NCBI GenBank assembly: GCA_018333785.1
Contig: JAGXSU010000026.1
Coordinates: 1 to 64,000 of the forward strand
Reading direction: 5' to 3'
Length of the DNA stretch: 64,000 nt
Source: Methylomicrobium sp.
GTDB lineage: Bacteria > Pseudomonadota > Gammaproteobacteria > Methylococcales > Methylomonadaceae
Of this stretch, positions 10,805 to 59,436 are shown one piece after another. How positions within the stretch are numbered: the stretch's first letter is position 1; every line of letters begins with the position of its first letter. The notes beneath the pieces were generated by a model. That model saw only the letters and a program-made list of their open reading frames with translations, was not told the DNA's origin and searched no databases. The position numbers and the translations under genes are program-made.

Positions 10805-10979
10805 TTTCACAGCCCTACTTACAGCATCGTTACGAATTTAAAGCCTAGCAAGTGCCGGATTTAAATCAGGCTATTTTCGCGTTACTTAGTTGAATGGACA
10901 TCTACACCGACATTCCCGCAAAGCTTACGACTCTCCTTCTTCTCCAAACTGGGATTAGCTGAAATTACACCGCGCTGCG

Positions 10980-18347: not shown

Positions 18348-18499
18348 TTCTAGAAGAAAGACCGTCATACCCGCCGGGAAGCGGGTATCCAGTGCCATGG
18401 ATGGCGAGCTTCGAACCCTCCATGGAACCTGGATTTCGGCAATCCATGCCGGAATGACGACCTTCGGTCTTGTGAAACCTGAAACCTTACAAAGTAGAA
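18348..18499. mobile_element. MITE-like element, family 1, copy 1 (with 4-bp target duplication)
   Basis: A 152-bp non-coding element bounded on the right by ACAAAGTAGAA (18489-18499), the inverted copy of the TTCTACTTTGT end at 59272. The left end is shortened (TTCTAGAAG). It is flanked by GTAG on both sides (18344-18347 and 18500-18503), as a target-site duplication would look. The core includes a CCATGGATGGCG segment and GGCAATCCATGCCGGAATGAC, shared with the family 2 elements. Confidence 0.7.
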
Positions 18500-35384: not shown

Positions 35385-35460
35385 ACGTCTTTCCGGCAGG
35401 GATTGCCGGAATCCAGGCCACAAGGATGTGTTCGGCGCTTGCCATCCATGACACCTGGAT
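35385..35460. repeat. Half of the shared MITE core, joined to a family 3 repeat
   Basis: It contains CCGGCAGGGATTGCCGGAATC, as two joined pieces, then CACAAGGATGTG and GCCATCCATGACACC, as in the family 2 elements. The right half of the core is missing: at GGATCTCGGCA the sequence passes straight into the family 3 repeat. A 14-base stretch, TACCTGATTATAAA, just upstream (35357-35370) recurs at 49696. Confidence 0.6.
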
Positions 35461-47588: not shown

Positions 47589-48164
47589 TTACAACCCTTC
47601 CCAAGGTTTATAAAGTCCTTCCGCCTCGACGCCGAACATCGCCAAAACGCGCCCTACGCCATCGTTGACCATGGCTTCAATCGAGTTGGCTTTGTTATAA
47701 AAAGCCGGCATGGGCGGATAAATGATGCCGCCCATTTCGGTTACACTGCCCATATTTCGAATATGCGCCAAATTAAGCGGCGTTTCTCTGGGCATGATGA
47801 CCAAACGGCGACGCTCTTTTAATACGACATCGGCCGCACGGGAAATCAAATTATCGCCAAAACCATGCGCAACCGCAGCCAGGGTTTTCATCGAACAAGG
47901 TGCAATGATCATGCCTTCGGTTTTAAAACCGCCGCTGGCAATCGTAGCCGCCACATCGTTCACGTCATGCGTTACATCCGCCAGTTCATAAAGCATCTTC
48001 CGTGACATGTCCAACTCGTGCTTCAAGTTGATCAAACCGGCCGAAGAAATCACCAAATGCGTTTCCCAATCCGCCTGTTCTTTAAGAACCTGCAGCATTC
48101 TGACGCCATAAACCGCGCCAGTTGCGCCGGTCATGCCTATTACCAATCGTTTTATTTTTGTCAT
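47589..48164 (-). CDS. ubiX: Flavin prenyltransferase UbiX
   Basis: Adds a dimethylallyl group to FMN to make the prenylated flavin used by UbiD decarboxylase in ubiquinone synthesis. The 191 residues show the N-terminal GMTGATGAVYGVRMLQVL, the Ser of the flavin site, and the conserved MIIAPCSMKTLAAVAHGFGDNLISRAADVVLKERRRLVIMPRETPLN. The C-terminal GGIIYPPMPAFYNKANS contains the prenyl-phosphate Tyr. Dimethylallyl phosphate comes from the pathway that ispH belongs to. Confidence 0.97.
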   Translation of the reverse strand: MTKIKRLVIGMTGATGAVYGVRMLQVLKEQADWETHLVISSAGLINLKHELDMSRKMLYELADVTHDVNDVAATIASGGFKTEGMIIAPCSMKTLAAVAHGFGDNLISRAADVVLKERRRLVIMPRETPLNLAHIRNMGSVTEMGGIIYPPMPAFYNKANSIEAMVNDGVGRVLAMFGVEAEGLYKPWEGL

Positions 48165-48288
48165 TAAGCCGGTTAAATCGGGTTAGTTTAAAGTAGCCTG
48201 GATGCAGAAGGCAGAGCAACGCAGGAGCAGTTGCCGAGGGGTTAGGAGAGTTTTTTTAAATAAATCCCCCTCGCTCCCCCTTTTTCAA

Positions 48289-48450
48289 GGCTATGTCCGC
48301 GTTAATAGTAGGCGTCGCCCCGGCAGGGATTGCCGGGGTCCAGGAGCCATGGATGGCGTTGGGCTTTCACATCCTTGTGACCTGGATTTCGGCAATCCAT
48401 GCCGGAATGACGGTGTTGATTTACTTTCAAGTACTAACGCGAACATAGCC
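48289..48450. mobile_element. MITE-like element, family 2, copy 1 (8-bp target duplication)
   Basis: A 162-bp non-coding element. The left end is GGCTATGTCCGCGTTAATAG and the right end is CTAACGCGAACATAGCC, an inverted repeat of about 16 bp with one mismatch. It is flanked by TTTTTCAA on both sides (48281-48288 and 48451-48458), a perfect 8-bp target-site duplication. The inside carries the shared palindromic core. The target was itself a palindrome (CCCCCTTTTTC with GAAAGGGGGAGG), which this insertion split. Confidence 0.85.
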
Positions 48451-48484
48451 TTTTTCAAAGGGGGAGGTTGTTTATAACGAAATC

Positions 48485-49435
48485 CTAAGCTAATCGCCGA
48501 GCCATAGTATCAGTCGAATCGATTAATGCATTTATCATTGCCTCGCCCTGAGCAATGTGACCACCGTTGGGCAAGATCATGAGTTCAGCCTGAGGCAATG
48601 CTTCTTGTAATTGTAAAGCCGCCTCGACCGGACAAACCAGATCATAGCGGCCATGAATAATGACCGTTGGGATGTCACTTAATGCCTCGCAGTTATCAAG
48701 TATTTGATTTTCTTCAATAAAGTACCGGTTAACCGCGTAATGAATTTCCATCCGGGCCTGCTTGATCAACTGCACCGTATCGACAGTGTGTTGGACCGAA
48801 GGCCTAAAATCATTCCCCAAAGCCACCTGCCCGCCCCAGGCCATCCACTCTTTGGCGGCGCGCAAGCGGGTGACTTCATCATCCCCCCAAAGCGCATCGT
48901 TCAACTGCTGAATTAAATCATCACCCGATGCATTCGGCAAACTGGAAACCAGACGCTGCCATTGCTCAGGATAAATCCGGCCTGCGCCGTCTTTGGCGAA
49001 CCACTCCAAATCTCGTTGGCGGGCAAGAAAGACGCCGCGAATGATCATTGCGCTGACCGCATCAGGATGGGCTTGCGCATACAGCAAGCCCAATGTGCCG
49101 CCCCAGGAACCTGCAAACAAAACCCATTGTGGGATGCCCAGGCGCCTTCGGATACACTCCATGTCATCGATCAAATCCGCAGTGTTGTTGGCTTCCAGTT
49201 CGCCAAAAGGCAAGGAGCGGCCGCAGCCGCGCTGATCGAACAAAACGATATGATAAAGCTCAGGATCAAAAAACCGCCGGTGATCCGGCTTGCAACCGGA
49301 ACAAGGCCCGCCGTGCAGAAAAATAACCGGTAGCCCTTGTGGGTTACCGCATTGCTCCACATAAACAGCGTGCTGGGATTGGGTTTCCAGGAAAAAGGTA
49401 TGGAACGGCTCGATGGCCGGATATAAAGTCTTCAT
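48485..49435 (-). CDS. pip: Proline iminopeptidase
   Basis: The 316-residue alpha/beta hydrolase (peptidase S33) removes N-terminal proline. It has the oxyanion motif HGGPCSGC, the nucleophile elbow FAGSWGGTLGLLYAQAHP, the Asp in IHGRYDLVCP and the His in PNGGHIAQG. The family hallmark DQRGCGRS is present. It is a cytoplasmic enzyme with no signal peptide. It lies between two family 2 MITE-like elements. Confidence 0.94.
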   Translation of the reverse strand: MKTLYPAIEPFHTFFLETQSQHAVYVEQCGNPQGLPVIFLHGGPCSGCKPDHRRFFDPELYHIVLFDQRGCGRSLPFGELEANNTADLIDDMECIRRRLGIPQWVLFAGSWGGTLGLLYAQAHPDAVSAMIIRGVFLARQRDLEWFAKDGAGRIYPEQWQRLVSSLPNASGDDLIQQLNDALWGDDEVTRLRAAKEWMAWGGQVALGNDFRPSVQHTVDTVQLIKQARMEIHYAVNRYFIEENQILDNCEALSDIPTVIIHGRYDLVCPVEAALQLQEALPQAELMILPNGGHIAQGEAMINALIDSTDTMARRLA

Positions 49436-49497
49436 GAATCAGTTTGGTTTAGTTTCTTTCAAATCGATCTTTATCAGGATTCAAGCGTCTTCTTAAA

Positions 49498-49685
49498 GGC
49501 TATGTTCGCGTTAATAGTGGGCGTCACCCCGGCAGAGCCTGCCCCGGTCAGGGAATGCCGGGGGATTGCCGGGGTCCAGAATCCATGGATGGCGCTGGAC
49601 TTCACATCCTTGTGACCTAGATTCCGGCAATCCATGCCGGAATGACGGTGTTGATTTACTTTCAACTACTAACGCGAACATAGCC
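49498..49685. mobile_element. MITE-like element, family 2, copy 2 (8-bp target duplication)
   Basis: A 188-bp element with ends GGCTATGTTCGCGTTA and TAACGCGAACATAGCC, a perfect 16-bp terminal inverted repeat. Both flanks are TTCTTAAA (49490-49497 and 49686-49693). The internal core matches copy 1, with an extra 26 or so bases of CCCCGGTCAGGGAATGCCGG type near the left. No gene lies inside. Confidence 0.88.
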
Positions 49686-49695
49686 TTCTTAAATG

Positions 49696-49770
49696 TACCT
49701 GATTATAAATGCACTGTTCGCGTTAATAGTGGGCGTCCCGGCAGAGCCTGCCCAGTTCAGGAAATGCAGG
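49696..49770. repeat. Family 2 left-end fragment
   Basis: ACTGTTCGCGTTAATAGTGG at 49711 matches the left end of the family 2 elements, then GGCGTCCCGGCAGAGCCTG; it breaks off before the core. TACCTGATTATAAA precedes it, as at 35357. Confidence 0.6.
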
Positions 49771-49787
49771 CGGATTGCTCATCAGTT

Positions 49788-49861
49788 GTAGGGAGGATAA
49801 GGCGACAGCCGCATCCGCCAAAGCAGTTAAAGGTGGATATGCTGCCGCTTATCTTCCCTAC
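49788..49861. repeat. Long imperfect palindrome
   Basis: GTAGGGAGGATAAGGCGACAG at 49788 pairs imperfectly with CTGCCGCTTATCTTCCCTAC at 49842-49861. The middle has the pair GCATCCGCC and GGTGGATATGC. It is a 74-bp hairpin-forming repeat, single in this window. With the family 2 pieces it fills the 545-bp space between pip and the outer-membrane protein gene. Confidence 0.6.
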
Positions 49862-49925
49862 CCATCTGCCACCGAGACGTTCACGGTAGTGCGAAGAGCC
49901 AAGATCAATACCTGATTTTGCCCAC

Positions 49926-49957
49926 AAAAAAAGGAGGGGTTTGACGCCCTCCTTTTT
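49926..49957 (-). terminator. Rho-independent terminator of the outer-membrane protein gene
   Basis: On the minus strand: stem AAAAAGGAGGG with CCCCTCCTTTTTTT and a 7-base loop, ending in seven T. It lies 24 bp after the gene's stop. Confidence 0.9.
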
Positions 49958-49980
49958 GGGGTTTCTTTAAGTGTTTAAAC

Positions 49981-50844
49981 TTAGAACTTGAAACCTACAG
50001 AACCGCCCAAAGTAAAGCCGTCTGTATCAACACCGTCGACATCATCAAACGATTCGTGATAACGGACATCGGCACCCAAAACGATACCTCTGAACAAATC
50101 ATAATCCACACCACCACCAAACTGCATGCCGGTGTTTAACACGGTAACCGCATCAGATGGCGGGCTGATGATGTTGATATCCAGACCGGCAGGAATCAAC
50201 CAGGGTCTGAATTTGCTGCCATGCAAGAATTTGATTTTCGGTGCGGCACTGATTCTCAGCATGTTGACCGTTACGTCTTGCAATACATCTACTCCATTAC
50301 CACCAATAGCAGGATTTTGAGCTGTTATTACATTATCAAGTCCGTTGTTTTTTCTATCTCCTATTTCGGAATATTCAATACCTAATTCGATGCCGAACGA
50401 AGTATCATCCATCAAACCGAACAAGTCATTATTCATGTTGAAATCGATGGCACCGCCGATATAGAAAGCGTCTTCATCAGTACCACTCGTCAGAATATCA
50501 ACTCCAGCACCTGAGCCACGGACATTATTAAAACGCTCCCAACCACCACGAACCGCAAACACATGATCTTTCTCTTGAGCTGAAGCCGGATTCGCTTTAA
50601 CAGAAGCGGCCCATTCATCCAATTCCTGAACTTTCGCGGTATCTGCTGCAGAACGGCTGGCGGCGTCACGGACGCGGCTCAATTCGCTTTGCATTTGTTG
50701 CAGCATTTCGGACATTTGATTAACTTGGGCTTCCAGTGCTTCCACTTTTGCATCTGCAACCGCTTGCGGAGAAACTAGGGCGCCCGCCATGGATAATGTC
50801 GCTGTAGCCAGGCCCAGCGCGATTTGAGTTTTTTTCAATTTCAT
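49981..50844 (-). CDS. Outer-membrane beta-barrel protein with coiled-coil N-terminus
   Basis: The 287 residues contain a signal peptide (about 1-31, ending QAVADA), a coiled coil (about 33-75, VEALEAQVNQMSEMLQQMQSEL) and a beta-barrel (about 95-287) of alternating hydrophobic strands. The last residues, GGSVGFKF, end in Phe, the outer-membrane insertion signal. The coiled coil may form a trimeric periplasmic stalk, as in some porins. The strong GAGGGGG ribosome-binding site, good promoter and terminator point to a highly expressed single gene. The transported substrate is unknown. Confidence 0.85.
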   Translation of the reverse strand: MKLKKTQIALGLATATLSMAGALVSPQAVADAKVEALEAQVNQMSEMLQQMQSELSRVRDAASRSAADTAKVQELDEWAASVKANPASAQEKDHVFAVRGGWERFNNVRGSGAGVDILTSGTDEDAFYIGGAIDFNMNNDLFGLMDDTSFGIELGIEYSEIGDRKNNGLDNVITAQNPAIGGNGVDVLQDVTVNMLRISAAPKIKFLHGSKFRPWLIPAGLDINIISPPSDAVTVLNTGMQFGGGVDYDLFRGIVLGADVRYHESFDDVDGVDTDGFTLGGSVGFKF

Positions 50845-54269: not shown

Positions 54270-54391
54270 TCTTGCGTTAGGCAGTGGCGTCATCCCGGCA
54301 GGGATTGCCGGGATCCAGGACACAAGGATGTGCTAAAGCCTTTGCCATCCATGGCTTCTGAATTCGCATACGCGGTCTAACGGCTCCGGGA
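54270..54391. repeat. Degenerate core element before pmbA 3' end
   Basis: GCGTTAGGCAGTGGCGTCATCC, as two joined pieces, then GGCAGGGATTGCCGG and CACAAGGATGTG match the shared core. The right side (54363-54391) contains, on the minus strand, GGAGCCGTTAGACC, also found inside the element at 31241. It ends 8 bp before the pmbA stop. Confidence 0.55.
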
Positions 54392-59271: not shown

Positions 59272-59436
59272 TTCTACTTTGTAAGATTTCAGGTTTCACA
59301 TGACCGAAGGTCGTCATTCCGGCATGGATTGCTGGAATCCAGGCTTCTCGGATCGTTCGAAGCTCGCCATCCATGGCACTGGATACCCGCCTCCCGGCGG
59401 GTATGACGGTCTTTCTTCTAATCTGACAAAGTAGAA
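59272..59436. mobile_element. MITE-like element, family 1, full copy (4-bp target duplication)
   Basis: A 165-bp element with a perfect 11-bp terminal inverted repeat, TTCTACTTTGT (59272-59282) and ACAAAGTAGAA (59426-59436), flanked by TTAG on both sides (59268-59271 and 59437-59440). The interior is the shared core: CGTCATTCCGGCATGGATTGC, read in two parts, and ATACCCGCCTCCCGGCGGGTAT. With the palindrome at 59130 it fills the 449-bp gap between yhdP and the amidase gene. Confidence 0.82.

Follow-up and report, generated by a model that had tools for sequence, protein, structure and literature searches.

MITEs with IS1595-type ends carry CGTC-tagged REP pairs in a Methylomicrobium genome

The DNA analyzed here, a 64,000-nucleotide stretch of Methylomicrobium sp., a member of a methane-oxidizer family, referred to as the window, contains a 188 bp MITE that was very likely moved in trans by an IS1595-family transposase acting on its GGCTATGTTCGCGTTA ends; like most of its relatives it carries a pair of CGTC-tagged REPs as cargo, and the copies are now probably immobile relics. 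The element (49498-49685, + strand) can be read directly in the window sequence between two copies of the 8 bp target duplication TTCTTAAA (49490-49497 and 49686-49693, neither with a strand). Its terminal repeats, GGCTATGTTCGCGTTA on the left (49498-49513, +) and TAACGCGAACATAGCC on the right (49670-49685, -, located as a 16-mer match), form a perfect 16 bp inverted repeat within a 23 bp repeat at 96%, and direct reading of 49490-49693 thus bears out the earlier description of a 188 bp element with perfect 16 bp ends between 8 bp repeats. The window has six matches to the 16-mer end at up to three mismatches, compared to 0.52 expected. Between the ends are a left CGTC-REP with a loop approximately 27 nt longer (49522-49579, +) and a right CGTC-REP (49617-49647, -) with a CGTC tag, 9 bp stem, 5 nt loop and tail, a structure that follows the sections consulted of PMC3733652. 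With lengths of 188 bp and, in a sister copy, 162 bp, and with 16 bp terminal inverted repeats and no transposase gene, the elements fall within the usual definition of MITEs (~70-300 bp); open reading frames overlapping the copies in a mechanically produced list encode 51-107 aa.

The sister copy (48289-48450, +) starts 1,209 bp from the start of the 188 bp element and is flanked by a different duplication, TTTTTCAA (48281-48288 and 48451-48458, both read directly and without strand), with CGTC-REPs at 48313-48343 (+) and 48382-48412 (-). Between the two elements is a gene (48485-49435, -) whose 316 aa product we take, from reading its translation, to be pip, and both insertions are outside it and outside the neighboring long open reading frames. 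The pip neighborhood is conserved in two genomes of the same genus (G001 and G002). The site of the 188 bp copy is empty in G001, with one TTCTTAAA, and it is likewise empty, but diverged, in G002; the site of the 162 bp copy is empty in G002, with one TTTTTCAA, and the corresponding stretch in G001 is lost or rearranged. These single-8-mer empty sites show that both elements arrived by insertion and, with the genome-wide table described below, support the claim in the earlier note of two independent insertions with different A/T-rich 8 bp duplications flanking pip.

A third copy, degraded and overlooked by the earlier reader, starts 16 bp downstream of the right-hand TTCTTAAA duplication (49710-49900, +, the end being approximate). 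It is a hybrid with worn ends, in which the left half is of the CGTC-REP type and the right half contains a GTAG-tagged REP pair (49788-49861, +, with units at ~49788-49819 and ~49832-49861, as read in the sequence). It is in the same place in G001 and G002 and, being common to all three genomes, existed before they diverged and represents the oldest layer. An Rfam search around the 188 bp element and the third copy gives no match above the gathering score; a sub-threshold match to naRNA4 is at 49791-49858 (25.7 bits versus a gathering score of 59.5, E 0.12). naRNA4 is a REP-derived RNA.

The position of the young copies beside pip raises the question of whether they are kept because a transcribed hairpin regulates pip and its neighbors, either as a terminator or through RNA stability. 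Both copies do fold far better than shuffled sequences (z -8.05 and -7.97), and part of the right REP is terminator-like in both, but good folding of a palindromic pair is expected by construction, and there is no sigma-70-like promoter within 48100-50000 (0 versus 2.0 expected). Moreover, the young copies are absent at their sites in G001 and G002, so that there is no conservation supporting a function. A regulatory effect of the copies in the vicinity of pip is conceivable, though unsupported, and seems improbable as the reason for which they persist.

Searching the whole genome (G000) with the 16-mer end gives 89 matches at up to two mismatches, compared to seven for a reversed-pattern control. 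Pairing of ends, with no more than four mismatches for both ends together and a span of no more than 416 bp, identifies 31 complete copies, most commonly of 183 bp (12 copies) or 162 bp (seven copies); this is a minimum, as unpaired ends, copies truncated at contig boundaries and pairs with greater decay are not included. An 8 bp duplication (at least 7 of 8 bases) flanks 23 of the 31, 16 of them with exact duplications, whereas over 2,000 reshufflings of the right flanks the number of copies with a duplication averages 2.0 and never exceeds seven. Exact flank matches among the 31 copies peak at a length of 8, and there are none from 9 to 13 bp. The A/T content of the duplications is 92%, compared to 45% in the bases just outside, and the consensus for the 23 copies is TTWWWWAA, in which T occupies the first position in 21 copies and the second in 19, and A occupies the seventh and the eighth each in 18. 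These copies, their duplications and the empty sites together amount to the dispersal of a MITE family. The A/T-rich preference that the earlier note expected from tabulating flanking 8-mers is thus evident genome-wide, and its family and 8 bp target both stand, although it missed the IS1595-family type of the parent, the palindrome-pair cargo and the older third copy. Copies without a duplication, which it had regarded as counter-evidence, do occur (8 of 31); two of these have perfect ends and A/T flanks that seem shifted by about one base, and in the remaining six the ends contain 2 to 4 mismatches.

We also note an isolated end-like 16-mer in the window, GGCTATTTTCGCGTTA (10869-10884, one mismatch), upstream of a gene that reads at its start like phosphoglycerate kinase; a right end for the 16-mer was not found, and it is probably a decayed copy. 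Two contigs of G000, C86 and C130, both end inside or beside what looks like one same MITE insertion, and these repeats therefore seem to break the assembly.

The relationship to the IS1595 family is based on the ends. The 16-mer end is present at up to one mismatch in 24 of 151 genomes of the bacterial family, and in Methylovulum miyakonense HT12 (NZ_KB913025.1; G025) two such ends enclose a 1,048 bp IS with a long reading frame. The 323 aa product matches PF12762 (DDE_Tnp_IS1595) with 47.9 bits (cut-off 27), and the stop codon of the transposase gene is inside the right end of the IS. The IS ends, GGCTATGTTTGCGTTAATAGTTG, share 21 of 23 bases with the MITE right end, and 15 of the 16 MITE end bases equal those of the IS (GGCTATGTTCGCGTTA differs from the IS end GGCTATGTTTGCGTTA by one base); the IS is flanked by the duplication TTTGTTAA. 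Relatives of this transposase are present in 20 of 237 genomes of the bacterial family, and plasmid-borne ones have been annotated as members of the IS1595 family. Six of the loci listed (L204, L206, L212, L213, L224 and L225) have GGCTATGT-type ends with 8/8 flank matches, and a further IS, at L205, has a transposase that is 81% identical and flanks that do not match. An A/T-rich 8 bp duplication, as in the MITE copies, is a property of IS1595-family elements according to the portions consulted of PMC12561309 and PMC8101967, and is described for another member, ISApl4, in the former. The agreement of ends and duplications suggests that the MITE was mobilized by a transposase of the G025 type or a close relative.

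The 8 bp duplications could also fit a parent from another IS family, such as ISL3, and ISL3 transposases are present in G000 (five matches) and G001 (four matches), with the end of the G000 copies starting GGCTCTTCCGG. However, the ISL3 ends that were read do not go on as the MITE ends do, whereas IS1595-type ends agree with the MITE over the 16-mer as well as in the bases that follow. The ISL3 copies seen (GGCTCTTCCGG...) do not have the MITE end, and we consider an ISL3 derivation extremely improbable.

In the three genomes of the genus itself there is no relative of the G025 transposase at E 1e-10; G000 is a draft of 201 contigs from which a collapsed transposase copy could be missing, and G001, with three contigs, is also without a match. 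The only PF12762 match in the genus (G002, L146) was rejected as a parent, having no such ends within four mismatches. Seven longer end-to-end spans in G000 (0.4 to 1.9 kb) contain ordinary-looking genes or nothing, with no transposase by reading; none of the IS loci examined has ends of exactly GGCTATGTTCGCGTTA, the nearest differing by one base; and plasmid and phage collections give no DNA match to the 188 bp element. Because the three genomes lack a relative of the transposase, the copies look like orphaned MITEs, probably immobile relics of an earlier burst.

The interior of the MITE is not a shortened IS. An outward-facing pair of CGTC-REPs is present in 26 of the 31 complete copies, with a single unit in four and none in one. 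The consensus of the unit is CGTC-ATTCCGGCA-TGGAT-TGCCGGAAT-CCAG, with a 9 bp stem beginning AT and a 5 nt loop, and it has the structure of CGTC-tagged REPs (a CGTC tag, an 8-9 bp stem starting with A/T pairs, a 4-5 nt loop and a CCA tail). It also has the copy number and the dimeric arrangement of such REPs, with 165 units in G000 at up to three mismatches (with positions listed for the first of the 165) and none for a control. In other genomes of the bacterial family, ends of this type (A-type) enclose CGTC pairs at L162 and L164, and a short non-coding middle at L176. G037, which belongs to another genus of the bacterial family, has elements of approximately 313 bp (L195 738-1050 and L203 1302-1613) with identical ends and a different long hairpin; a hairpin similar to it is found at a contig end of G000 (L061) and in a 369 bp copy on contig C156 of G000.

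CGTC-tagged REPs were stated in 2013 to be without a dedicated transposase, and Di Nocera et al. (2013) did not decide whether they are mobilized by RAYTs or by other transposases (both from the parts consulted of PMC3733652). We set RAYTs aside as movers of the CGTC unit, as a CGTC pair is near only one of 25 Y1_Tnp loci in the three genomes (L328, at a contig start). A GTAG-type pattern is present at five of the 25, with exact copies on both sides of the Y1_Tnp gene only at L325, and searching five of these RAYT loci for inverted repeats gives one GTAG-type pair (L327).

These REP pairs might not be cargo at all, and could have inserted by a mechanism of their own into pre-existing MITE shells, with shells and REPs moving separately. 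The wider distribution of the unit (75 of 151 genomes of the bacterial family at up to three mismatches, versus the 24 of 151 with the end sequence) is consistent with this, as are the occurrence of CGTC-REP pairs in several unrelated shells and the CGTC-1 dimers of Halothiobacillus neapolitanus inside 41 bp palindromes, described in the sections consulted of PMC3733652. However, shell and REP pair are absent together in the empty-site genome at both young window sites, and differently placed copies with their own duplications mostly bear the pair, as expected from an amplified composite. CGTC-REPs also have no known enzyme, and the other 24 Y1_Tnp loci of the genus have no CGTC unit nearby. 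We regard separate movement as unlikely, although independent entry of REPs may be the origin of the first composites.

CGTC units are also located inside shells B (CCTGATTATAAAGATG...), C (AGCACTGTCGCGTAAGG...) and D (TTCTACTTTGTAAGATT...), and probably E (GATTACGTATAAGCTTCAGCC...), with C, D and E defined by eye; shell C may be a diverged relative of A, as its right end resembles the A end. Of 128 CGTC units tabulated from the fetched loci, an A-type end borders 75 on one or both sides; B without A is present at 17 (three of them also with D), C at eight, D at five, and none of the listed ends at 23. These proportions are biased because the loci were partly picked for A-type ends. Of 16 paired copies of shell B, five are flanked by 8 bp duplications, where the control gives a mean of 0.4 and at most 4. 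Two variants of the interior, a 27-nt loop expansion (18 places of the fetched loci) and a 21-nt stem insert (34 places), each occur near more than one shell type, and hybrids on contigs C117 and C194 combine a left end of type B with a right end of type A. The presence of the pair in at least four end types, the two interior variants crossing shells, the B/A hybrids and the shell B duplications raise a broader interpretation, which we find about as easy to accept as to doubt, that CGTC-tagged REPs are disseminated by several unrelated MITE shells in which they ride as passengers, and pass from one shell to another by recombination.

Several individual loci are of note. Within the window, CGTC-REPs at 18429-18459 and 59312-59342 are in shell D (TTCTACTTTGTAAGATT...), which is unrelated to the A ends, and for those at 35386-35416 and 54288-54318 the shells are B (CCTGATTATAAAGATG) and one that resembles C. 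On contig C194 of G000 (L124 3587-4179), a second stretch comes after a 235 bp copy; its left end is B-type, it terminates as the copy does, and TTTTTTAATACC follows both ends. This looks like a product of recombination.

For the A-type copies we propose that an IS1595-type transposase, formerly present, would have acted in trans on the shared GGCTATGTTCGCGTTA-type ends and pasted whatever lies between them into A/T-rich sites, with staggered cuts giving rise to the 8 bp TTWWWWAA duplication. A composite of shell and REP pair would have been amplified, and both of the young window copies would have arrived in this way; the first composites could have formed when REPs entered a shell or when palindromes recombined with one another. 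What is new is a concrete carrier for CGTC-tagged REPs, some of which would have been moved as MITE cargo: in the two insertions with empty sites, a CGTC-REP pair came in within a transposon that has IS1595-type ends. The question of how CGTC-REPs are mobilized thus becomes testable with one transposase and one donor plasmid. The MITEs also persist in a genus in whose three genomes the matching kind of transposase is not found.

We found no earlier report of this element, of CGTC-REPs inside MITEs, or of CGTC-REPs linked to IS1595-type ends in searches of open-licence PMC papers, nor in the portions consulted of PMC12306157, PMC6006769, PMC10969869, PMC3852290, PMC4853749 and PMC5896051; the string 'Methylo' is absent from the main text of PMC3733652. 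The MITE itself is of a known kind. As far as the material consulted describes IS1595-family elements such as ISApl4, it shares with them ends starting with GG, A/T-rich 8 bp duplications and, in the IS with matching ends, a DDE_Tnp_IS1595 domain, but it is only 188 bp and has no transposase gene. With NEMIS, ERIC and RUP, as presented in the consulted part of PMC3733652, it has in common its size, terminal inverted repeats, lack of coding capacity and frequent location beside genes, and it differs from them in its interior. The combination of a MITE and an internal REP is already known from QMITE2 of Coxiella burnetii, a 150-190 bp element containing a REP palindrome; there, according to the parts consulted of PMC5896051, the REP is GTAG-tagged and the direct repeats are 7-11 nt, whereas the window family has CGTC-tagged pairs, an 8 bp duplication and an IS with matching ends. 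The closest relatives of the cargo are the CGTC-tagged REPs including dRS3 of Neisseria, with the same CGTC tag, 9 bp stem starting AT, 5 nt loop, CCA tail and dimers; an association with a transposase is not reported for them in the sections consulted of PMC3733652, whereas here they lie inside transposon ends flanked by target duplications.
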